Virus record (IMG/VR): IMGVR_UViG_3300036770_000289
Span: 1 to 20,193 of that record
Source: a virus
Reading direction: 5' to 3' (one strand)
DNA: 20,193 bases
Below the pieces are notes generated by a model that saw only the letters and a program-made list of their open reading frames with translations, was not told the DNA's origin and made no database searches. Numbering within the stretch: position 1 is the stretch's first letter; every line of letters begins with the position of its first letter. Shown here piece after piece: positions 2,939 to 17,512 of this stretch. A program made the position numbers and the translations under genes.

Positions 2939-4102
2939 CTACCAAGTGATGCTTCCGTTGCCTGTAAATGTGTAGACAGTGTACGCACCTGTTGTGCTGA
3001 CGCTCGGGCTTCCTGTCGTTGACGCGGCAGCTGTCTTACTGCGCAAGATTACGACACCTGAACCGCCGCTAGCGACAGTGTCGTATCCACCACCAGCACC
3101 ACCACCTGTGTTTGTTCCACCAGCAGTTCCACCGACAGGACCACTGCCAGCGTTGCCGCCGCTACCGCCGCCACCTGAACCACCAGAAGAAGTGAAACTG
3201 TTTCGAGACTGACCGCCGCCACCGCCGCCACGAGTGACAGATGAACCTGTTATTGACGATGCGACACCATTACCACCAGCACCACCATTACCGCTAGACC
3301 CTGTTGCACCAACCGCACCAGCACCGCCGCCGCCGCCGCCGTTATCGTTCGGGAATGGCGAACCACCTGTGCCACCCGAATAACCTTGACTTCCTAGACC
3401 GCCAGCACCAGCGATGCTTACGCCGCCGCCGCCACCACCACCAGAGCCACCTATTCTTGGCGCAAGGTTGCCACTCGGACTTCCATACCCGCCGCCATAC
3501 GCAATAACAGTTGAACCGATACTGCTGTCACTTCCGTTTGTATTTGCTGCACCGCCACCACCAACCGTAATCGTGTACGAAGTTCCCTTTACAGGATAAA
3601 ACGGCACTTCCGCAGATGAGCCACCGCCAGAAGTTTCACCAGGAACAGAACACCTGTACCCACCAGCACCGCCACCACCAGAACCAGTACCCGCACCGCC
3701 ACCGATGACGAGATACTCAACAGCTATTGAAGTTGGGCCACTGCGAAAAAAGATGGAGCTTGACGCGCTGGTGAAATAAACGACTCCGCCCTCCCATTGC
3801 GCCAATGTCGGTGCTGAACCAGCAGAAGAGTTCAGTGTCATGCCCGTTCCGGCTGCGACGGTAATCGTGCCCGAACCAATCGAGTGAACCCAAACGATGT
3901 CACCTGCGTTGAACGTTGAGTCGGGAACGGTGACGGTTCCTGCGGAAGCCATGTTCATGACTTCGCGGGTGCCTTTGTCGGTTGCTTGCAACGTGTAGTT
4001 GGCGGTCTGCGTTGAGACGGTCCAGTTGAAGTCATTGGTTTGCAGATCGTTCATCTGCTGTGCTGTGAGCGTCTGCCCACTTGAAAAGCTCTGCTTGGCC
4101 AT
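2939..4102 (-). CDS. Glycine-rich tail fibre/adhesin-like protein (387 aa)
   Basis: The N-terminus (FSSGQTLTAQQMNDLQ, then 'DKGTREVMNMASAGTVTVPD' and 'GDIVWVHSIGSGTITVAAG') resembles the virion-attached part of environmental phage fibres. 'VEYLVIGGGAGTGSGGGGAG' (about 129-148) opens a long Gly/Ser/Ala-rich region to about residue 345, broken by short loops containing Tyr, Phe, Pro and Asn. The tail ends 'STTGAYTVYTFTGNGSITW', a typical closing beta strand for this kind of Gly-rich protein. In Salmonella phage S16 a Gly-rich adhesin packs as polyglycine-II helices that display host-binding loops, so a receptor-binding role is a reasonable inference. The DNA is rich in GCC/CCA triplets on the plus strand. 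Confidence 0.75.
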   Translation of the reverse strand: MAKQSFSSGQTLTAQQMNDLQTNDFNWTVSTQTANYTLQATDKGTREVMNMASAGTVTVPDSTFNAGDIVWVHSIGSGTITVAAGTGMTLNSSAGSAPTLAQWEGGVVYFTSASSSIFFRSGPTSIAVEYLVIGGGAGTGSGGGGAGGYRCSVPGETSGGGSSAEVPFYPVKGTSYTITVGGGGAANTNGSDSSIGSTVIAYGGGYGSPSGNLAPRIGGSGGGGGGGVSIAGAGGLGSQGYSGGTGGSPFPNDNGGGGGGAGAVGATGSSGNGGAGGNGVASSITGSSVTRGGGGGGQSRNSFTSSGGSGGGGSGGNAGSGPVGGTAGGTNTGGGAGGGYDTVASGGSGVVILRSKTAAASTTGSPSVSTTGAYTVYTFTGNGSITW

Positions 4103-7456: not shown

Positions 7457-8179
7457 TCAGTAGAGATTGAGCGTTTTCCTGAGTTCCCTGAACTCCGTCA
7501 ACAACGATTGTGCAATCTCCGTTTGAGTCATTCCGTTGAAACGCGACAAGTCCTGCGGGTCATTCCACCAGCGTTCATCAAGTATCTCTGCGACACGACG
7601 ACTCTCATGCGGTTCACGCCACGTCGCCGCCTTCGGTGACGGACCGAACTTGACGGAACGAAACACCGACAAGTCACCCGGATCAAGGAACGCGCCATGC
7701 TGATACTTGAACCCAGGCGTGATACCTGGGCGATGTTGCGGTCGGTAGAAGAGTCGTGCGGGGTCTTTCGTCTGCGGGTCACCTGCAACATTGATTCGCT
7801 CCAAGAGCTGAATCCACACATCACTCCACATGTGCCCAGGCACAGGTTTGGCGAGCGGCAGAACCAAGTGCCAGTGCTCGTCACCTGACTGATGCGACCA
7901 TGTGGTGTAGGCGAGATACTCCAAGCCGTCGAGCTTGGCGTAGTCGAACGATTCGCCGTCCATGTCGACGACGAGACAGGTCACGTTCTTGACGTTGCGA
8001 TTGCCTCGAGTGGACAGGTGGTAATACTCGACCGGTGACCAGAGCTCACGGTTCGTCTTGTCGGCGTTCTCCACCGTGGATTCGAGCAGCGATTGCAACC
8101 CGTTCCACGAGATGGCAAAGTGCTTTGGCTTGACGCTCTTGACGTCGTCAAACTTCACTGCCTTGATTTCAGTAGGCAT
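7457..8179 (-). CDS. Primase-polymerase (AEP)-like protein (240 aa)
   Basis: The central block has the motif order of archaeo-eukaryotic-type primases in phages: 'TCLVVDMDGESF' with D72-x-D74 (motif I), 'YTTWSHQSGDEHWHLVLPLA' (91-110) with S95-H96 and H102/H104 (motif II region), and 'DPARLFYRPQHRPG' (139-152) resembling the 'dpsRlfylP' block. The C-terminal third has no helicase or zinc domain, so it is at most a stand-alone catalytic domain. It has a strong GGAGG six nt before the ATG and lies between the gp10-like and tape measure genes, an odd place for a replication gene. Activity cannot be judged from sequence alone; a nuclease/Rep-like fold is the main alternative. Confidence 0.6.
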   Translation of the reverse strand: MPTEIKAVKFDDVKSVKPKHFAISWNGLQSLLESTVENADKTNRELWSPVEYYHLSTRGNRNVKNVTCLVVDMDGESFDYAKLDGLEYLAYTTWSHQSGDEHWHLVLPLAKPVPGHMWSDVWIQLLERINVAGDPQTKDPARLFYRPQHRPGITPGFKYQHGAFLDPGDLSVFRSVKFGPSPKAATWREPHESRRVAEILDERWWNDPQDLSRFNGMTQTEIAQSLLTEFRELRKTLNLY

Positions 8180-9844: not shown

Positions 9845-10255
9845 CTAAGCGTACACCGTGACCTTGAAATCGACCGCCAGATACAGCGTGTCGTTCGCGT
9901 CGATGTTGGTGAGGTTCTCGGCGTTCGTGACGATGAGGTCGTCGCAGACTCCGCCCAAGGTGCGGTCTGCCTCGATGGCGGCACGCAATGATTTCGCGCC
10001 ATCCCACGACATGTATTGATCCAACTGGTCTTGCGCAACTCGTTCTGCTGCTCGGTTGACCACGAGTGTGATCGTGAAGTTCATGACGACGCCACCGTTG
10101 TTCATGCCGGTCTGGTGGTAGGTGATGGTGTCGAGTGTTGGCCATGCGAACGGCGGGTTCACCTGATCGGGCTGGTAGTCGAATGCACGCAGACCCGAGA
10201 CGGTGTTGATGGCGGTCTTCAAGCCGTCTTTGACTTGGCTGATTGTGGCTGGCAT
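9845..10255 (-). CDS. Tail completion/terminator-like protein (136 aa)
   Basis: A small alpha/beta protein: 'SQVKDGLKTAINTVSGLRA', 'PTLDTITYHQTGMNNGG', 'MNFTITLVVNRAAERVAQ', 'WDGAKSLRAAIEADRTLGG', and a final strand 'LYLAVDFKVTVYA'. The order of helix, central strands, an 'aaie.d.tLgG' helix and a closing strand is that of phage tail terminator/completion proteins, which cap the tail tube at the neck. Its position between the connector and the tail tube agrees. Translation is coupled to the connector by TAATG. Confidence 0.7.
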   Translation of the reverse strand: MPATISQVKDGLKTAINTVSGLRAFDYQPDQVNPPFAWPTLDTITYHQTGMNNGGVVMNFTITLVVNRAAERVAQDQLDQYMSWDGAKSLRAAIEADRTLGGVCDDLIVTNAENLTNIDANDTLYLAVDFKVTVYA

Positions 10256-10881
10256 TAGGCGAACATCCGCATGCGTCGATACGGCTCGACGAGCTGAGCC
10301 ATGTCAGGGTCGAGGAATCGAGAGACGCGGATTGCGCCAAGATCGCCGAAGCCTGCGACGCCGAGCGGTGAATCGTATCGCTTGAAGATGCGTGACGACT
10401 GGATGATGCATGCCTGCTTGATCGGCTCTGGCACGCTCGCCCAACCGAAAAGAGCGGTGACTTGCACCAAGGCTTGTTCGCCGTAGTTGGCGTTGACGGT
10501 CGGGAACAGGTAGTCGCCGATGGCACGCAGTTTGTTGTAAGACCAGGTGAGTCCGTCGAGCACACCGTTCAACGGTTCGAGTTGGTAGTCGGTGGTTGCC
10601 CAGGTGACGTCGAAGTTGCCGTCTGCGAACGTGGAGGTCTTGAGGATGAATCCGCTAGTGGAATAGACGTCGTCGATGTCGCAGACGTATTCGGTGTTCG
10701 CCTGATAGACGCGGACGGTTGCCGAGGAGTATGCCCAGAACTGGCGGTTGCAGTAGCCATCGATGAGGCGTGATGCGGCACCGATGCAGTTGTCAATCAG
10801 CACATCATCGACGGTGTCGGCTGTCCCGATCCGTAGAGCTGCCTTGACTTCTGCCAATGTTGCGTAGCCGTTGGTCGCCAT
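10255..10881 (-). CDS. Head-tail connector (adaptor, gp6-like; 208 aa)
   Basis: Starts 'YATLAEVKAALRIGTADTVD' and continues 'VLIDNCIGAASRLIDGYCNRQF', the helical opening typical of phage head-tail adaptors that dock under the portal. A beta insertion follows (about 55-110), then 'PEPIKQACIIQSSRIFKRYDSP' (150-171) and a C-terminal 'DPDMAQLVEPYRRMR'. Length is normal for the family. The gene would normally lie directly after the capsid gene; here the sugar cassette separates them by about 4.6 kb. Its TAA overlaps the next ATG (TAATG). Confidence 0.8.
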   Translation of the reverse strand: MATNGYATLAEVKAALRIGTADTVDDVLIDNCIGAASRLIDGYCNRQFWAYSSATVRVYQANTEYVCDIDDVYSTSGFILKTSTFADGNFDVTWATTDYQLEPLNGVLDGLTWSYNKLRAIGDYLFPTVNANYGEQALVQVTALFGWASVPEPIKQACIIQSSRIFKRYDSPLGVAGFGDLGAIRVSRFLDPDMAQLVEPYRRMRMFA

Positions 10882-10893
10882 GACAGGTCAATC

Positions 10894-11529
10894 CTACTCA
10901 ACAGGTTCCCAAGCAGAACCCACGAACCTGAGTATCTCGCAGCCGTAGTCATTGCGCAATCGGTTGGCGACGATTCGCAACTGTTGCATCGCACCCTCGA
11001 ATGATGGGTCCACTCCACCAGTGCGGATGTATCCATCGAAGTTTGATTTGTCGCCAATCTTGCCCATGTCTACTCCAATGAGTCGCATCTCGGCACAGCC
11101 CATGTAGGCCGCAAGATGTATGGCGATTGCCGATGAGTTTCCACCGATGACCAATGAATCAGGGTCGGTAGGCCAGCCTTCTGTCGGATTCCATACTGGC
11201 CATCGTGGTCTGAATGTGATGTTGTTCCCGACTCCAGGATGAGTCGGTGTACGGTCGCCTGATACATCACAATCAGGAGTGACCATCAGCAAGTCTGGAC
11301 GTTTATCGCAAATCATCTGAATGTCTGGATGGTGACGTGAATAGTTTGAGGCCGTGATGTAGTTCTTGATGCCCCAAGAAAATGCGGATTGATTGATTGA
11401 CACGACCCGCTTGTCGTCGTAGAACTCGGGCGGTGTGGTCTCGAGGCTCGGGCCGGAGCCGACAACCCAGACGGTCTGTCCACTCCAGATACCTTTCAGG
11501 TCGCTAAGGGTCTGAGGCGTGGCGGCCAT
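10894..11529 (-). CDS. DUF115/Maf-like Rossmann protein (211 aa)
   Basis: The opening 'GQTVWVVGSGPSLETTP' (17-33) and the later 'GGNSSAIAIHLAAYMG', followed by 'EMRLIGVDMG', are the two typical blocks of the DUF115 (MptE-like/Maf) family. Bacterial Maf proteins are linked to adding nonulosonic acids to flagellin, and DUF115 proteins are frequent in phage and bacterial glycan clusters. It closes the cassette, so a sugar-transfer or sugar-handling role is inferred. It uses the ATG at 11529 with only a weak SD (GGGTGAAGA). Twelve nt separate it from the head-tail connector gene, the first clean gap after the run of overlaps. Confidence 0.7.
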   Translation of the reverse strand: MAATPQTLSDLKGIWSGQTVWVVGSGPSLETTPPEFYDDKRVVSINQSAFSWGIKNYITASNYSRHHPDIQMICDKRPDLLMVTPDCDVSGDRTPTHPGVGNNITFRPRWPVWNPTEGWPTDPDSLVIGGNSSAIAIHLAAYMGCAEMRLIGVDMGKIGDKSNFDGYIRTGGVDPSFEGAMQQLRIVANRLRNDYGCEILRFVGSAWEPVE

Positions 11530-12173
11530 TCTTCACCCGGTATCACTCGACCTTCCCTCAACAGGTTCGCAAAGATGATGACGTCGTTGACAGCTTGCTG
11601 GTCGTCGGTTGCGGTGAGTGCGTCGTTGTGTCGCTGCCACGTCCAACGAACAGCAGTATCAAATGTGGCCCGGTAGCCGTGGGCTCGCAGCTCGCACCAG
11701 TGAATCCAATCGACGTACTTGTGGCTGCGGTACGGAATCTTGCGCCACACTTCGGTTCTGATGATGGCGAGTCCTGGCATGCCGTTATGCCCGAGATCGA
11801 GCAGCCGTTCATATTGGTCGGGTGTGCCGTAGCAGAGACCGCCGTTCCAACGCCCAGCCACGTTCACCGCATCGCCATCCAGGACGAGCCCTTGGAAGAA
11901 GTCGGCGTCCATCGTGTCGTCAACAGGCAGATGCGTCGCCCACTCGGATTCGACCGCACGCACGGCAATGTTTGCGCACGGCCAGATACGCGAATCCCAA
12001 TAGTTGATAACCCGCCACCAGCCAGGCACCTTCACATCTGCGTTCGTGACGAGGATGACCTCCTGCGGCTGCACCGTCAACCGCTCAACCGACGCAACGA
12101 ACCGTTCACCGAACCGTTCCCAATAGTTGCGGTCGAACGGAGAGATGATTGCTACTGGCGCGTGCGATACCAC
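11496..12173 (-). CDS. GT-A-like glycosyltransferase-family protein (225 aa)
   Basis: The N-terminal part reads like a GT2-type Rossmann domain: 'APVAIISPFDRNYWERF', then 'QEVILVTNADVKVPGWW' (37-53), and 'THLPVDDTMDADFF' (80-93), with D85-D86 as the candidate DxD-like metal site. 'GMPGLAIIRTEVWRKIPY' and 'KYVDWIHWCELRAHGYRA' resemble acceptor-side segments of GT2 proteins. The match is weaker than for the two genes upstream, so the exact family is uncertain. It uses a GTG start at 12173 with AAAGG rather far upstream. It overlaps the DUF115-like gene by 34 nt, the longest overlap in the cassette. Confidence 0.65.
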   Translation of the reverse strand: MVSHAPVAIISPFDRNYWERFGERFVASVERLTVQPQEVILVTNADVKVPGWWRVINYWDSRIWPCANIAVRAVESEWATHLPVDDTMDADFFQGLVLDGDAVNVAGRWNGGLCYGTPDQYERLLDLGHNGMPGLAIIRTEVWRKIPYRSHKYVDWIHWCELRAHGYRATFDTAVRWTWQRHNDALTATDDQQAVNDVIIFANLLREGRVIPGEEWPPRLRPLAT

Positions 12174-12886
12174 GATGCGGGAGCCTTTCCATCCAGAATC
12201 ATCTTCGGCAACCGAGCATCAAGCTCGGCATCCTCAAACAAGCCTTCGCCACGAATCGACCTGCCAATCGTGTAGTTCTTCTCCATGAACGCCTCCGGTT
12301 CGGCGACCATCAGTTCTTGGTGGCAGAACTCACGCATCTTGTTCGCCGCCCATTCTGGGCCACCCATCCACGACAGATGCCACCCCGACCTCAGGACGGG
12401 CATTGAGTAGCGTCCAGAACGCGCCTGTTGCGCCGAAACGGGTCGGGTGCCCCAAGGACCGCCCACCGCCGTGAACTCGTCATCCAGACGCCAATAGACG
12501 CTCATGACGGTCCGTTTCATCACCCAAGCCCGCCACTGCCCATAGGCAAGCGTCTGAATGTCCTCAGGGTCCCAAATCTCGTCACAGTCACACACCGTCA
12601 CAATGTCCTGCTCGTGAGGCTGGAACTCTTCCACGATGCGGAACAGGTGGTCACGCTGGGCGTGTTCGGCAGCCCAACCCCACGGCCCGTGATGCGCGAA
12701 CGTCCGATACACCACCTTCGGGTGGTTTGCGTGCCGCGGCTCCAACCCGGTCTTCTTGCGTCGACCCATGAACGTCGACTCACCCTCCAAGATGATGAAC
12801 TTGTCCACCGCATCCTCAAGGTGACTGAGCCGCACATCAAGCATGTCAGCTTCCTGGTTGTAGAGCATGAGGTCAAAAACGCGCAC
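12152..12886 (-). CDS. GT17-like glycosyltransferase (244 aa)
   Basis: The pattern is that of glycosyltransferase family 17, named after eukaryotic beta-1,4-mannosyl-glycoprotein N-acetylglucosaminyltransferase. It shows 'VFDLMLYNQEADMLDVRLS' (3-21), 'DAVDKFIILEGESTFMGR' (25-42), then 'WAAEHAQRDHLFR' (71-83) and the acidic 'IVTVCDCDEIWDPEDI' (95-110), with D100-C-D102-E103 as the likely metal/donor site. Members also occur in giant viruses, bacteria and phages; the substrate of phage copies is not known to me. It uses a GTG start at 12886 with GGGGAG close upstream. It overlaps both neighbours, by 14 nt upstream and 22 nt downstream. Confidence 0.75.
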   Translation of the reverse strand: MRVFDLMLYNQEADMLDVRLSHLEDAVDKFIILEGESTFMGRRKKTGLEPRHANHPKVVYRTFAHHGPWGWAAEHAQRDHLFRIVEEFQPHEQDIVTVCDCDEIWDPEDIQTLAYGQWRAWVMKRTVMSVYWRLDDEFTAVGGPWGTRPVSAQQARSGRYSMPVLRSGWHLSWMGGPEWAANKMREFCHQELMVAEPEAFMEKNYTIGRSIRGEGLFEDAELDARLPKMILDGKAPASWYRTRQ

Positions 12887-13448
12887 GACTTCTCCCCATC
12901 AGCAATACACGGTCATCGTTGATAACCATCTTCTTGTGCAACTCAAAGTGCGTCTCAACCTGACGAATCAAATCATCAAGCGAAGGAACGTGCCAATGCG
13001 TCGGACTCGTGATGTATTCATTCACAATGATCCAATCGGCGCACGCAGCAGCCCTTACGATCACCCGTCGCCATTCCTCTTGGTAGACGAGGCTGTAGCT
13101 GCATACTGCAAGTTCGTATTCACCGCTCGCCGTCGCAGCGATACCGTCACCATGACGAAAGTCCACATCAGGAAAAGAACTGCGTGCTTTTCGTATTGCC
13201 GTCTCGGAGACATCAAAGCCGACGACTTTGCGGCCGGGTATCGCCCATTTGTGTGTCTTGCTTCCTTTTCCGCAACCGATGTCAAGAATGCTGCTAAACG
13301 CCCGAGAACCAATCAGCATGTCAACCAACTGAAACTCCATAACTCGAAGGTCTGACATCGACCAAGCATCAAATCCTTCTTCGTCTTCGGCTTGATAAAG
13401 ACGCTCAAAGTCACCAGGCGGTTGCAAGTATTTGTGCCAAAAAGCCAT
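12873..13448 (-). CDS. Class I SAM-dependent methyltransferase (191 aa)
   Basis: Motif I is clear ('SSILDIGCGKGSKTHKW'), followed by the acidic end of strand beta-2 ('KVVGFDVSETAIRKA'), a motif with 'DVDFRHGDGIA', and 'GEYELAVCSYSLVY' at the position of motif IV. This is the small-molecule/sugar type of Rossmann methyltransferase; there is no DNA-methyltransferase catalytic motif such as DPPY or PCQ. Given its place between glycosyltransferases, sugar O-methylation is the best guess. The ATG at 13448 overlaps the preceding TGA (TGATG), which favours it over the in-frame TTG at 13457. Its end overlaps the next gene by 14 nt. Confidence 0.8.
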   Translation of the reverse strand: MAFWHKYLQPPGDFERLYQAEDEEGFDAWSMSDLRVMEFQLVDMLIGSRAFSSILDIGCGKGSKTHKWAIPGRKVVGFDVSETAIRKARSSFPDVDFRHGDGIAATASGEYELAVCSYSLVYQEEWRRVIVRAAACADWIIVNEYITSPTHWHVPSLDDLIRQVETHFELHKKMVINDDRVLLMGRSRARF

Positions 13449-14101
13449 CAATCCCAACCCAACTCTCTGCGTCGCTGCAACTCGTAATCAACCAAATCCT
13501 CCCAAGGCTGATTCAGCCGCTCATTGAACCGTTGCAGATTCGCTTGGAACGTGAGAGAGTTTCGTTGCTGAAACTTCTCACTCGATGCCAGGGTGCTCGA
13601 GTTGCGATGGTTGATTGCCGCCGTCGACTGCACGATTTCAACGCCTGCACGCTGGGCACGCACCTCGTAATCATTGTCCTCGAAGTAAGCGGGATGGAAG
13701 CCCTCATGAAACAACCCGACCTTGGCAACCACCTCAGCCCCAATCCACACGCATGACCAGTTCGGTTTGCCGCCGAGCACGATGTTGTCGGGTCGACAGT
13801 TCGCATAAAACGCCTGCGTCCCACCCTCACCGAACTGGATGTCGTGATTCACAATCATCCAACCAGGTGAGAACGGTGTCGCCTTGATACCCAGATTCCA
13901 CGACGCCGCGACACCGAGATTGTTCGGCATCCGCCACACATAGATTTCCGACGCCTTATGCGTCCGCACATTCCACTCCGAGTTGCCGTTGTCGATGCAA
14001 AGCAGCTTCCCTATCTTGCCCTCGAACGACAGCAGCATCGCATCCACCCGCCAATGCTCCGTGAGCACCGGCACGATTACGACTGGGACGATCGGCACCA
14101 C
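13448..14101 (-). CDS. Glycosyltransferase, GT-A fold, GT2-like (217 aa)
   Basis: The N-terminus 'VPIVPVVIVPVLTEHW' is followed by 'LCIDNGNSEW', the first nucleotide-sugar strand of GT2 enzymes, then 'RMPNNLGVAASWNLGI' (58-72), a strong GT2/rhamnosyltransferase-type motif. The metal-binding position is 'VNHDIQFG' (84-91), a variant of DxD. 'FHPAYFEDNDYEVRAQRAG' (135-153) matches the acceptor/catalytic ED region. The enzyme is short and has no TM anchor, so it is likely soluble. It uses a GTG start at 14101 with GGAG eight bases upstream, inside the end of the GT4-like gene. Its stop overlaps the methyltransferase ATG by one base. Confidence 0.8.
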   Translation of the reverse strand: MVPIVPVVIVPVLTEHWRVDAMLLSFEGKIGKLLCIDNGNSEWNVRTHKASEIYVWRMPNNLGVAASWNLGIKATPFSPGWMIVNHDIQFGEGGTQAFYANCRPDNIVLGGKPNWSCVWIGAEVVAKVGLFHEGFHPAYFEDNDYEVRAQRAGVEIVQSTAAINHRNSSTLASSEKFQQRNSLTFQANLQRFNERLNQPWEDLVDYELQRRRELGWD

Positions 14102-15378
14102 GCCGCAATCTCCTTCATCGCAGGCTTCCAGAACTCGTCGTACACGCGGTCCGCTTCGTACTGCTTGGCGAACTCAATCGCCTTCTTCGACTTCTCGCCA
14201 CGACGCTCATACGCCTGCTCGAGCGAGTTCAAGATTGAACTGACCGACGGCGTCAAGAACCACGAACGCTGAGCCGCATCCCAATATGGTTGACCATCCA
14301 CAACCCAACCATCACCAACCAACTCAGGCTGAGCCGTGAAGTTCGAGACGATGACAGGTGTGCCGCACGCTTGAGCTTCAATGACCGGGATGCCGAATCC
14401 TTCACCCATGCTCGCGGCGAGCAGCACGTCGGCTGCGGTGTAGAGCGTCGCCATCGCATGAATCGGCAGACCGTTGCGATACAGGTACGGGTCGGCCCAC
14501 TTGATGCGGTCCTTCGGTATCCCGCACACTTCAGCCAGGGCATTCAGATCGAGTCCGCCCATCGACCCGCTCGCCTCAGAATGCATGTAGAGAACCGCGT
14601 CAGGATGTCTTGACGCGAACATGCTGAACGCCATGAAGTTTTCGGCGAACGCCTTACGCGAAGGATGCACACCTTTGTTCGCCGCGGTCATCATTACCAC
14701 GAACTGACCGTCCTCGTACCCCATGATTTGGCGACCGCTGATTTGTTTGCCAGCATTGTCTTTCACGAACGGCGACGGCTTGTAATCGGATTCGATGCCG
14801 TGCGGAACATAGACGTTGCGCACACCGGCACGATCCAACTCGGCCTTCCCGAACTTGCTCATCGCAATCGGCAACACGTTCGGACGTTTGCACCACGCCA
14901 ACACATCGGGCGGAATCGGCGCATGATCAATCGGTACCCACGAAGCAATGTTCGGCACCTTGTCCAGATTCGGAGCCTTCAACACCCACACATCAAACAG
15001 AGTGATGAGCAACTTGGGCAGTTTCGTCGCCTGAGTCCACTCCATCCAGTGGGCGACGATGATGTCGTCAGAGTACGGGTTCAGTCCCCGCGGGTAGATT
15101 TTGATGCCGTTCCACGTCGACGTCGAACCTTCGAGTCCGTACATTGCGTGGATTGCGATTTCGTGCCCTTCTTTGACGAGCCTTTGGACCGCTTGCTGGG
15201 TTTGCTGGCCGTAGCCCGTTCCCGCCCACGGGGCGTTGGAGTACCAGACCGCCCTGACCGCGTCCGAGGTTCGACGACTGACTCCTCCCACAAGTGAGCC
15301 ACGCCCAGCTGCAAGAGCAGGGTCGCCTCCGCTCCCGGTAAGTCCATTGGCACGCCCTTGATTACCACTCGCATTCAC
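14077..15378 (-). CDS. Glycosyltransferase, GT-B fold, GT4-like (433 aa)
   Basis: Probably transfers a sugar from a nucleotide-sugar donor. The N-terminal half has 'VWYSNAPWAGTGYGQQTQQ' (44-62), the Gly-rich acceptor-side loop of GT-B enzymes, and 'IIVAHWMEW' (106-114). The C-terminal half has the donor-site signature 'GEGFGIPVIEAQACGTPV' with the E-x7-E pair (E326/E334) typical of GT4. The first 40 residues are Gly/Ala/Ser-rich and may be a flexible extension. The GTG at 15378 is chosen for its GGAG six bases upstream. It is the first gene after the capsid terminator, and its end overlaps the next gene by 25 nt. The target could be virion proteins or host surface glycan; the sequence does not say which. 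Confidence 0.85.
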   Translation of the reverse strand: MNASGNQGRANGLTGSGGDPALAAGRGSLVGGVSRRTSDAVRAVWYSNAPWAGTGYGQQTQQAVQRLVKEGHEIAIHAMYGLEGSTSTWNGIKIYPRGLNPYSDDIIVAHWMEWTQATKLPKLLITLFDVWVLKAPNLDKVPNIASWVPIDHAPIPPDVLAWCKRPNVLPIAMSKFGKAELDRAGVRNVYVPHGIESDYKPSPFVKDNAGKQISGRQIMGYEDGQFVVMMTAANKGVHPSRKAFAENFMAFSMFASRHPDAVLYMHSEASGSMGGLDLNALAEVCGIPKDRIKWADPYLYRNGLPIHAMATLYTAADVLLAASMGEGFGIPVIEAQACGTPVIVSNFTAQPELVGDGWVVDGQPYWDAAQRSWFLTPSVSSILNSLEQAYERRGEKSKKAIEFAKQYEADRVYDEFWKPAMKEIAAWCRSSQS

Positions 15379-15397
15379 GCAGTTCTCCTTCGCAGGT

Positions 15398-15426
15398 TTG
15401 ATTCAACCTTAGCCGAGAAATGTCAA
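15398..15426 (-). promoter_or_regulatory. Possible weak promoter for the glycosylation cassette
   Basis: A perfect -35-like TTGACA occupies 15426-15421, immediately after the terminator stem. At 16-18 nt spacing the -10 region reads GAATCA/AATCAA, a poor match to TATAAT. The same bases also form the U-rich tail of the terminator, so the -35 match may be coincidental. Confidence 0.2.
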
Positions 15427-15466
15427 AGCGGCCCGGCACCACCCTGCGTGTGGGTGCCGGACCGCT
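15427..15466 (-). terminator. Intrinsic terminator after the major capsid gene
   Basis: A 14-position stem with one mismatch (AGCGG-c-CCGGCACC pairing with GGTGCCGG-a-CCGCT) and a 12-nt loop. On the minus strand it is followed by TTTGACATTTCTC, a broken U-rich tract. It lies about 40 nt after the capsid stop, a common place for phages to limit read-through from a highly expressed capsid gene. Termination is probably partial, because no strong promoter is visible for the genes downstream. Confidence 0.75.
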
Positions 15467-15507
15467 CGACTATTCACGTCCCATCAAGGGACTTCGTCGG
15501 GTTCGCC

Positions 15508-16692
15508 TTAGGCGGCGTTGCCGATGAAGTGCTTGATGTGGCTCGTCTGCGGCAGGTTGCCGTCCACGCGCATCGTGGCGCGGAACGTGACGAGGTCCGC
15601 ATTGAATGCGTAATCGTCGCTGCGATCGAGACGCAGACCGCCCGCCATGCGGACGTAGTAGCTGGGCATGTGTCCGAAGAGGACCGACTTGGCCGACAAA
15701 CCAGTGTCAGCCATTGCCGGGTTCTCGTACACCGGGAAGTTCAGGACGCGGTCATTGCCGTCAGCCAATGCTGGGCTGAAGACGTAGTAGCCGGCCGTGT
15801 CTTTCAGGGTGCGGACTTTGCCGAGGGATGCGGTGTTCATCATCCAGCCGACGCCTGGGAGACGACGCGCTGCGCCGTTCAGGCTGTAAGCCAGGTTGAT
15901 GAGGTTGTCCGCGGTGAACGCGCCAGTGACGCCCGTGCCGCCGGTGATACCGAGCGAGCTCTGGGTCACGATGCCTGCTGGCTGGTTCGTGCCTGAGCCG
16001 GTGGTGAGACCAGCGTTGACACGGAAGCCGAGCTCGTTGCCCGTCTGGGTGGCGAGGAAGGCGAGGATGTCCACGCCCGAGTCCTCAATGAGTTCACGCG
16101 ACAGCTGCACCAGGAACGAATACTTGTATGCGCTCAGGGTGACGAAGCTGTTGAACGTGGGGTCGGACTCCGCGATCGCGGTGCCTTCGCCGACGATTGC
16201 CGCCGTCGACCAACCGGCCTGCGACGGAATCTGGAGGTTCTCGCCACCAGCCGTGCGGAGCACGGTCGAGGTGTCGAGCATCGGGCCGACGAGTCGGGCC
16301 TGCTCGATGACGCGGTCGAAGAACGACGTCGGCACCGGAGCACCCGACGAAGTCTTCACGACGTCACGGGTCTCGAAGGTGAACGAACGGGTCTCGCCAC
16401 GAGCCATCGAACGGATGACATCGGAGTCGGTGGACATTGCTTTGGCAGCCGGGCGAACCTGGGCGGCGATGTCGCGGGTGGCCGCTTCAATCTTCGCCTC
16501 GCGCTCGGCATCAGCCTTGAGGGCTTCGATGCGAGCGGCACGCTCGTTGAGCTCAGCGTTCATGCGCTGGTAGCTCTGCTCTTCTTCTGCGGTGAGGTCG
16601 CGCTTTTCGGATGCAGCCTTGTCGAGAAGGGCCTTGGCCGCTTCCCAAGCACGCTGACGCGCCTCGACCTGCTGGTCGATGTATTGCTTCAT
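15508..16692 (-). CDS. Major capsid protein, HK97 fold (394 aa)
   Basis: Builds the icosahedral head. Residues 1-85 are a charged helical segment (MKQYIDQQVEARQRAWEAAK..., 'LTAEEEQSYQRMNAELNER') typical of the HK97 delta/scaffold domain that the upstream protease removes. The shell domain follows: 'FFDRVIEQARLVGPMLD', 'LQIPSQAGWSTAAIVGEG', 'TLSAYKYSFLVQLSRELIE', and a tail 'MRVDGNLPQTSHIKHFI'. These are hallmarks of the Phage_capsid family. The frame stays open upstream to about 16890, but the ATG at 16692 is preferred because GGAGG lies eight bases before it and the scaffold domain starts there. The cleavage site, probably near residues 85-105, cannot be fixed from sequence alone. A terminator follows at 15427-15466. 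Confidence 0.95.
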   Translation of the reverse strand: MKQYIDQQVEARQRAWEAAKALLDKAASEKRDLTAEEEQSYQRMNAELNERAARIEALKADAEREAKIEAATRDIAAQVRPAAKAMSTDSDVIRSMARGETRSFTFETRDVVKTSSGAPVPTSFFDRVIEQARLVGPMLDTSTVLRTAGGENLQIPSQAGWSTAAIVGEGTAIAESDPTFNSFVTLSAYKYSFLVQLSRELIEDSGVDILAFLATQTGNELGFRVNAGLTTGSGTNQPAGIVTQSSLGITGGTGVTGAFTADNLINLAYSLNGAARRLPGVGWMMNTASLGKVRTLKDTAGYYVFSPALADGNDRVLNFPVYENPAMADTGLSAKSVLFGHMPSYYVRMAGGLRLDRSDDYAFNADLVTFRATMRVDGNLPQTSHIKHFIGNAA

Positions 16693-16801: not shown

Positions 16802-17512
16802 CTAGACGAGCTTGGCTTGCAGTTCAAGTTGCTTGGCAAGCAGCGAAGCAGGAACCTGCTCTGGCTTCTTGCGCAACTTGCCAACCACATCGAGCAGCAA
16901 CGAAGCCTGCTCGTCGTTCAACTCTGAACCAGCCTCGAGCACGGTGATCGCATCGGCGAGTTTGTCTGCGTCGGCCGCTGTTCTTTCGGCGAGTTGGTCG
17001 AGGCTACGAACTGATGCGCTGGTCGCCTGGTATGCGGGGAAGCCGGTCACGACCGACACTTCGTAGAGGCGTACTTCTTTAAGTTCGCGCACCATTCCGT
17101 CATCCGACCACGAATCACCTTTCGGTGGAACCGAGAAACCAAACGACATTGAGTCGACGTCGCCGCGCTGAATCAGCGTCGACAGATCGCGGCCCACCGT
17201 GGTGTCCGGTAGGTCTGCTTCAACTTTCAGACCGCGTTCATCTTCCATCAGACGCAACGTCTTTGCGCGAGTCGTCGCAAGAAGCATCGACGAATCATGG
17301 TTGAGATACATGCGGATGTTGTTCTTCGATTTGAGTGAACGCTTGAATGCGCCAGGTGCGATGCGTTCAACGAATGGCAGCGGCTCCGAATCAGAGTTGA
17401 ACACTGCGGCGTATCCGCTGAATGACATGCCGTCACCGGCTGGACCTTGTCTGACCTCGAAGTCGTTGACGGTTAGCCGACGGGTCTCAATCTTCTCGGT
17501 CATGGATGACAA
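16802..17512 (-). CDS. HK97-family prohead protease (peptidase S78)
   Basis: This serine protease matures the procapsid by cutting the capsid protein's N-terminal scaffold domain. The S78 pattern is clear: 'FSGYAAVFNSDS' (31-42), 'RIAPGAFKRSL' (50-60), the catalytic His in 'YLNHDSSMLLATT' (His72), and the catalytic Ser region 'DVDSMSFGFSV' (Ser121/Ser123), followed by 'LYEVSVVTGFPAY' (149-161). Length (about 236 aa) is normal. The C-terminal third (about 170-236) is a helical tail. The start is uncertain: TTG at 17512 has GGA at a suitable distance, whereas the ATG at 17503 (MTEKIETRR) has no well-placed SD. It lies directly upstream of the major capsid gene, the usual order. Confidence 0.95.
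   Translation of the reverse strand: MSSMTEKIETRRLTVNDFEVRQGPAGDGMSFSGYAAVFNSDSEPLPFVERIAPGAFKRSLKSKNNIRMYLNHDSSMLLATTRAKTLRLMEDERGLKVEADLPDTTVGRDLSTLIQRGDVDSMSFGFSVPPKGDSWSDDGMVRELKEVRLYEVSVVTGFPAYQATSASVRSLDQLAERTAADADKLADAITVLEAGSELNDEQASLLLDVVGKLRKKPEQVPASLLAKQLELQAKLV

Follow-up and report, generated by a model that had tools for sequence, protein, structure and literature searches.

Enzymes of glycan-modifying type have been reported among the structural genes of several phages. Mycobacteriophage Corndog (cluster O) encodes an O-methyltransferase and three transferases among its head genes, which its authors suggest modify the capsid (PMC4351075); capsid glycans of Che8 (F1) are cited in PMC11256854; and pelagimyophages have a variable host-recognition island with glycosyltransferases inside the structural region (PMC7029224). 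In Synechococcus phage S-CBS4, consecutive GT4-like, galactosyltransferase and S-adenosylmethionine (SAM) methyltransferase genes lie in the head region. Pontimonas phage phiPsal1 (MG835450) has enzyme genes, including a methyltransferase, between its capsid and neck genes, in the order capsid-GT4-methyltransferase-GT2-neck; the paper reporting it states that the phage is not treated further (PMC6106888). Here we analyze a window of 20,193 bases, the complete IMG/VR virus record IMGVR_UViG_3300036770_000289 and probably a genome fragment, in which six predicted enzyme genes separate the genes for an HK97-type capsid protein and a head-tail connector. We find that the first two of these genes form a constant pair and that the remainder belong to a module that is exchanged as a whole; the locus probably serves virion glycosylation in actinobacterial phages, with a two-enzyme start that is constant and a cap that is exchangeable.

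A constant enzyme pair behind the capsid gene

The structural genes lie on the minus strand of the window, in the order (5' to 3') protease, HK97 capsid, six enzyme genes, connector, tail terminator, major tail protein, tape measure and more tail genes. The locus comprises the following features:

15508..16692, minus strand: major capsid protein, HK97 type (PF05065, 1.9e-55; phrog_10, 4.2e-73)
15379..15507, minus strand: conserved structured RNA, from capsid stop to GT4 start (folding and covariation)
14077..15378, minus strand: GT4 glycosyltransferase, constant, GTG start (PF00534, 2.9e-13; phrog_2170, 1.1e-34)
13448..14101, minus strand: GT2-like glycosyltransferase, constant, GTG start (phrog_29879, 4.9e-33)
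13448..13456, minus strand: left edge of the swap site, TGGGATTGA, Trp-Asp-stop of GT2 (edge comparison among relatives)
12873..13448, minus strand: SAM methyltransferase, ATG start, TTG at 13457 also possible (PF13649, 2.4e-11)
12152..12886, minus strand: GT17 glycosyltransferase, GTG start (PF04724, 1.5e-16)
11496..12173, minus strand: GT-A fold (GT2-like) glycosyltransferase, GTG start (predicted model)
10894..11529, minus strand: DUF115/Maf/GT42-like fold protein with GSGPS motif, ATG start (predicted model)
10888..10896, minus strand: right edge of the swap site, TAGGATTGA, stop codon of the last module gene plus likely ribosome-binding site of the connector (edge comparison)
10255..10881, minus strand: head-tail connector (phrog_442, 1.6e-15; PF05135, 3.9e-5)

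The six open reading frames, and the overlaps of 25, 1, 14, 22 and 34 nt between them, are exactly as given by the first-pass annotation of this DNA, and the profile matches listed confirm both flanking genes. All five junctions also overlap in 27 other loci that have all seven genes (several are the same contig, and overlap lengths in a second clade, where starts were taken from the alignment, are approximate). Four of the six genes do start with GTG; as a signal setting the set apart this did not hold up, L009 having ATG for both GT2 and GT17.

To place the locus, IMG/VR was searched with the capsid, Maf-like, GT-A and GT4 sequences, which gave 172 loci including the window (contigs and loci carry L numbers here) and 103 after removal of exact-sequence overlaps. 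Loci were counted as distinct if they shared fewer than half of their 300-letter pieces exactly, so near-identical contigs of different samples are still separate. As the capsid search used the best 80 of 388 relatives, nearest first, and the GT4 search the best 80 of 132, the counts below describe this phage group and not phages at large.

GT4 was found in 92 of the 103 distinct loci. The capsid gene lies directly before it in all 81 loci with at least 500 nt upstream, all 80 complete GT4 genes with 500 nt or more of downstream sequence have GT2 next, and, viewed from the capsid end, GT4 follows in 80 of 80 with at least 700 nt of room. A single six-gene insertion, as the region had initially been described, was rejected because GT4 and GT2 are never missing in the sampled loci; only the last four genes are exchangeable. 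Capsid and connector genes had been described as normally adjacent; this is true of the distantly related Streptomyces contig L084 (capsid 41% identical), where the connector comes straight after the capsid open reading frame, and phage TG1 has no annotated transferase there, but no empty site was found among the sampled loci of this group. Bacterial genomes searched by capsid yielded the Streptomyces contig and one weak match.

The hosts are probably actinobacteria, judging from WhiB genes in 11 of 11 longer relatives (possibly incomplete records) and from kinship to phiPsal1, whose Pontimonas host is actinobacterial. That the group is aquatic is a guess from phiPsal1.

Exchange of whole modules at two edges

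The swap site extends from the GT2 stop to the connector start. Sixty-six distinct contigs span it and hold 16 labelled gene sets, 0.6-3 kb in length: the window's methyltransferase-GT17-GT-A-Maf-like set (16 contigs), v3-v2 (12), GT-A alone (nine), v1 (nine), v1-v7 (six), v6 (three), GT17-v1 (two) and nine singles. The count of 16 is approximate, as labels were assigned by tblastn with few representatives and some genes are unlabelled (the second gene of L010 and L013 is v4-like, yet the set reads only v6). Genes v2 and v7 are Methyltransf_24 members, v6 is a GT2, v10 another methyltransferase and v17 a 2OG-Fe(II) oxygenase; the L010 module holds a phrog_9549 glycosyltransferase and the L018 module a methyltransferase. 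The combination in the window had been thought unfamiliar. The synteny search in viral metagenomes that had been proposed as a check returns its gene order in 16 of the 66 contigs, which is more than chance, and phiPsal1 carries a shorter set in the corresponding position.

Modules are exchanged whole, between one edge at the GT2 stop and another immediately ahead of the connector. Contigs L023 and L025 share 97.8% identity across the 5085 nt that lead up to the GT2 stop, then carry unrelated modules, and identity resumes at 95% from 29 nt before the connector match. In L043/L050, L053/L046 and L036/L016 identity ends within about 3 nt of the GT2 stop, and in the window and L010 about 24 nt before it; in all four pairs it is regained 15-29 nt ahead of the connector match. 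Between L060 and L062 the only difference is v7, gained by one or lost by the other. Among 67 different-module pairs, selected by identity of 85% or more at the GT2 end and 80% or more at the connector start, identity is 91% in the last 300 nt of GT2, 40% in the first 100 nt of the module, 29% in its last 100 nt, 94% in the last 20 nt before the connector and 90% in the connector; contigs recur among the pairs, which are not independent, and the 40% figure is raised by comparisons like that of v1 with v1-v7.

Both edges are marked by conserved sequence. On the left, Trp-Asp-stop ends GT2 in 62 of 66 contigs, 45 of which have exactly TGGGATTGA; on the right, TAGGATTG[AG] occurs in 43 of 66 and exact TAGGATTGA in 34, while the second clade reads TAGGATAGG. 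The window has GGATTGA at both edges, a repeat that might possibly help recombination. An HNH-like gene, recognized by eye, ends the five-gene module of L052 (14111-14611), and S-CBS4 (L118) has an annotated HNH gene beside its transferase-methyltransferase trio; a homing nuclease could aid module exchange.

A tree of capsid plus connector for 57 contigs including phiPsal1, made by a quick method with the approximate likelihood ratio test SH-aLRT as sole support measure, requires at least 19 changes among 13 module types, compared with a mean of 36.3 and a minimum of 30 in 100 label shuffles. Modules thus track descent loosely yet change often.

The window's own module recurs in the second clade, with the same six genes in the same order (capsid 63-76% and GT4 58-63% identical), and so is either old or has moved. 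Within it, the methyltransferase stands apart: nucleotide identity between the window and L017 is 56.9% for this gene, 87-91% for GT4, GT2, GT17 and GT-A, and 77% for the Maf-like gene. Its protein is 47-51% identical to all 12 aligned homologues, its GC content at third codon positions is 0.518 as against 0.59-0.73 in the other cassette genes, and no close relative of the allele was found in IMG/VR. On these comparisons, the methyltransferase looks to have been replaced singly within the module.

Elsewhere in the group, a 2OG-Fe(II) oxygenase gene occurs as a module gene at L056:3154-3912, which suggests, from its family, a product that may hydroxylate a sugar or a protein. Methyltransferase genes on the opposite strand within the cassette are found at L018:10722-11294 (minus) and L082:8162-8680 (minus).

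Enzyme families, predicted folds and selection

Three of the six genes exceed their Pfam cut-offs: GT4 (PF00534, 50.2 bits versus 26.4), GT17 (PF04724, 60.9 versus 26), in which D100, D102 and E103 are invariant in 14 sequences, and the methyltransferase (PF13649, 44.6 versus 27; class I SAM). GT2 is weak in Pfam (PF13641, 17 bits versus a cut-off of 27) and matches phrog_29879, 'galactosyl transferase', at 4.9e-33. The GT-A gene has by sequence a match to phrog_9549 alone (5.5e-4), and the DUF115 gene lies below its cut-off (PF01973, 31.5 bits versus 34.6). A sequence search of the PDB with these last two proteins gave nothing useful.

Structure prediction, which had been proposed for all six proteins, was run for these two unclear ones, with AlphaFold, from alignments of 21 (GT-A) and 17 (DUF115) sequences, the window's and its relatives'. 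The GT-A model (predicted local distance difference test, pLDDT, 94.2; Foldseek 2.4e-10) has its best structural match in heparosan synthase 2 (8vh7; Z 18.9, root-mean-square deviation 2.4, 198 residues aligned) and also matches the WrtF fucosyltransferase and other GT-A enzymes. Assignment of gene 11496-12173 as a GT-A fold glycosyltransferase, by fold only, is supported by this model. The DUF115 model (pLDDT 82.9) matches Maf (5mu5) best, at Foldseek 1.8e-4, the sole match below 0.001, and Z 10.9; near-ties are MptE (10.5) and the sialyltransferases CstI (10.3) and CstII (10.0), followed by thiamine pyrophosphokinase (9.5). Residues G24-S28 (GSGPS) are invariant in 17 sequences. As PF01973 stays under its cut-off although the fold agrees, we call this last gene Maf-like and do not file it as Maf.

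The families therefore came out much as first proposed: four glycosyltransferases, one of them by fold only, a methyltransferase and a protein of Maf/sialyltransferase fold, all supported as glycan-type. The cassette genes are under purifying selection, judging from ratios of nonsynonymous to synonymous substitution (dN/dS) of 0.06-0.16 for five of them between the window and L017; for the methyltransferase the estimate is saturated in that comparison and 0.05 for L017 against L090. The maximum hydropathy over 19 residues among the six proteins is 1.39, that is, there is no strong membrane segment.

A conserved RNA at the capsid-GT4 junction

The space between the capsid stop and the GT4 start contains the following elements:

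15492-15478, minus strand: small hairpin
15465-15428, minus strand: main hairpin
15448-15443, minus strand: loop motif CGCAGG
15396-15391, minus strand: complementary site CCTGCG
15390-15385, minus strand: Shine-Dalgarno sequence AAGGAG

Capsid and GT4 were both matched in 144 loci, counted with their duplicates and all retained by the match filter; these provide 65 distinct intergenic sequences. In every one of the 65, a stem of 15 or more pairs (with up to two mismatches) can close around a loop that contains GCA. The folding of the window element lies 3.9 standard deviations below that of shuffled sequences. Forty-seven of the 65 were aligned: all 12 consensus pairs are changed on both sides, 89.2% of cells pair versus 70.6% in shuffles, and the covariation score is 0.594 versus 0.274 (standard deviation 0.018) in shuffles and at most 0.215 when slid. 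The structure was derived from the same alignment, a bias in its favor, but the effect is large nonetheless. While the letters of the stem vary, the loop is constant, GCA being invariant and GCAGGG nearly so among the 47.

Complementarity to this loop is found in the linker that precedes the GT4 Shine-Dalgarno sequence. Among 46 distinct combinations of loop and linker, 34 have the loop CGCAGG, with CCTGCG in 28, at least CCTGC in 32 and CTGCAC in one; eight have the loop GTGCAG, with CCTGCG in none, CTGCAC in four, CCCTGC in three and neither in one; and four have altered loops (CGCAA), with at most three complementary bases. We consider the pairing likely to be real from this co-occurrence, short of proof because the independent lineages are few (about four). 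Several points count against it: the GT4 start region (CTGCGTG) offers the loop a second match in many loci; just four bases pair in L077, L021 and L116; and other-type loops sharing GCAGG score equally well or better against several linkers. We rely on the upstream site because the match at the GT4 start is lost in L020, L021, L044, L052, L055 and L069.

The element appears confined to this junction. A pattern of loop, site and Shine-Dalgarno sequence, with no protein and for the CGCAGG type only, matched 76 IMG/VR contigs: 66 between capsid and GT4, ten cut on one side by a contig edge, and none elsewhere. Rfam 15 gave at best 20.9 bits against a gathering score of 85 for window positions 15300-15600, and a covariance model had no match with E values up to 10 in phiPsal1, S-CBS4, TJE1, TG1, Mae-JY02, Mae-JY09 and two bacterial contigs (partial stretches for all phages but phiPsal1).

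This RNA may have a regulatory role. The simplest rival to a switch, and one on which we are evenly divided, is that the hairpin is a weak intrinsic terminator (attenuator) that lowers transcription of the enzyme genes after the capsid gene. In phiPsal1 the corresponding position has a GC-rich hairpin with seven T behind it, and some clades have T-runs after the stem, both of which speak for a terminator; yet a scan of the window for GC-rich hairpins with a T-run does not list its hairpin, and a terminator would need neither the constant loop, with GCA invariant throughout the alignment, nor the association of loop type with a complementary linker site. The fuller proposal, that modules swapped behind a fixed initiating pair vary the sugar coat of the capsid and that, in addition, an RNA switch (a loop-linker pseudoknot) meters the enzymes against the capsid, is in our view doubtful as a whole.

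Other features of the window

As listed, the capsid open reading frame begins at 16890; the initial 66 codons lie over part of the protease gene and have no match in several relatives, whose match begins at residue 67. Behind the connector lies one further feature of the head-tail junction:

9845-10255, minus strand: tail terminator (open reading frame call)

A very glycine-rich protein (2939-4102, minus; phrog_2295, function unknown) is encoded behind the tail genes. A 240-residue protein conserved in relatives (7457-8179, minus) is encoded between tail genes; its sequence is reminiscent of replication primase proteins.

Function of the locus

Glycan building, as had been suggested from the start, is the likeliest reading of the families and folds, here by cytosolic enzymes whose activities are predicted. 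We consider it probable that the glycan is built on the virion. Encoded in one gene run with the capsid protein, GT4 and GT2 would attach the first sugars, or lengthen them, on a protein of the virion (the capsid protein is the likeliest), and the downstream module would add lineage-specific sugars and methyl groups, the window's cap consisting of GT17, GT-A, the Maf/sialyltransferase-like protein and the methyltransferase. Whole modules would be replaced by recombination at the two edges, the benefit being a changed surface. The acceptor, the order of sugars, the benefit and the recombination mechanism are what we infer: the capsid as acceptor from its constant linkage to the pair and from the Corndog and Che8 precedents, and host sugar nucleotides as donors from the lack of an epimerase-family (PF01370) gene in the 11 longer relatives.

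Several observations weigh against this assignment. A position beside the capsid gene suggests shared expression, not the identity of the acceptor, and the virion glycan is a prediction from the genes. The DUF115 fold is common to MptE and thiamine pyrophosphokinase (Z 10.5 and 9.5), neither of which is a sugar transferase. Module genes v1 and v3 have no match in Pfam or PHROGs, and their representatives reach hydropathies of 1.80 and 1.66 near the N-terminus, a stretch that may reflect a wrong upstream start. The PHROG hits of v7 and v17 are 'DNA methyltransferase' (1.7e-5) and 'DNA endonuclease V' (0.0013).

The enzymes might instead alter the envelope glycan of the infected cell and so block other phages, as proposed for the glycosyltransferase islands of pelagimyophages (PMC7029224) and offered as one option for Planktophila phages (PMC10202952). 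We regard this as unlikely, given the unbroken linkage with the capsid gene (81 of 81 sampled loci), the absence of a GtrA flippase from all 11 longer relatives (possibly fragments) and of strong membrane segments from the six proteins; furthermore, enzymes of a late structural operon would presumably act late against superinfection. The transferases and methyltransferase sit inside the head gene run, as in virion-glycosylation clusters of actinobacteriophages. The sequence evidence leans toward the virion, rather than the host surface, as target.

Two other explanations seem much less probable still. The site may be a hot spot of ordinary moron DNA, where selfish or neutral genes accumulate between those for the head and the connector; near relatives do differ in gene sets, and the L052 module ends in the HNH-like gene. 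This is very improbable in view of the low dN/dS of five cassette genes, the unfailing presence of GT4 and GT2, and the fact that the Pfam-recognized module genes are transferases, methyltransferases or an oxygenase. For DNA glycosylation against restriction we see scarcely any likelihood. PF00303, which we take to be the family holding T4-type base hydroxymethylases, is unmatched in all 11 longer relatives (possibly fragments), and the GT-A model resembles polysaccharide and teichoic-acid transferases; what supports it is the 'DNA methyltransferase' match of one module methyltransferase and a proposal for glycosyltransferases of Planktophila phages (PMC10202952).

Under virion glycosylation, module exchange looks like diversification of the virus surface, and swap pairs with the same backbone and different modules are a natural series for testing what the glycan gives a phage. 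The junction RNA would add a new candidate to the regulatory elements of phage head operons.

Comparison with known systems

The position of the locus is not new, as phiPsal1 and Corndog-type mycobacteriophages carry similar enzymes among head genes. We found no description of the swap site or the junction RNA, nor any paper on the S-CBS4 transferases, in the open-licence literature, as represented mostly by titles and listings. The kind of system is known; the layout of a constant pair plus swappable module, and the RNA, both seen in sequence only, appear to be undescribed as far as we found.

Among named phages, searches with the methyltransferase, GT-A, Maf-like and v1 genes gave no match, and GT17 matched five Synechococcus phages at 25%. 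S-CBS4, with its comparable trio, differs in that the genes lie between portal and protease, the transferases are 26% and 33% identical and the host is a cyanobacterium. Corndog also has its set between portal and protease and not between capsid and connector; it is likened to the window by the description of a methyltransferase plus several transferases, not by enzyme homology (PMC4351075). In Maravista, a Che8 relative, the transferases are encoded close to the genome's 3' end (PMC11256854). The window's last protein is alike in predicted fold to Maf (5mu5), CstI and CstII, but it corresponds to the core domain only (211 residues versus 632).

The phage most similar to the window is phiPsal1, with 47.5% identity in the capsid, 43.9% in GT4 and 41% in GT2 and with enzyme genes at the same place. 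Unlike the window, it has three enzymes only, with the methyltransferase on the other strand between GT4 and GT2, and a T-tailed hairpin in place of the loop-conserved one. The pelagimyophage island (PMC7029224), at about 45 kb with tail fibres, contrasts with the 0.6-3 kb exchanged here downstream of two constant transferases. Few isolates are known to have glycosylated virions; the environmental group described here appears to keep the pair and exchange putative modifiers at gene edges, in a manner that looks comparable to bacterial O-antigen loci.

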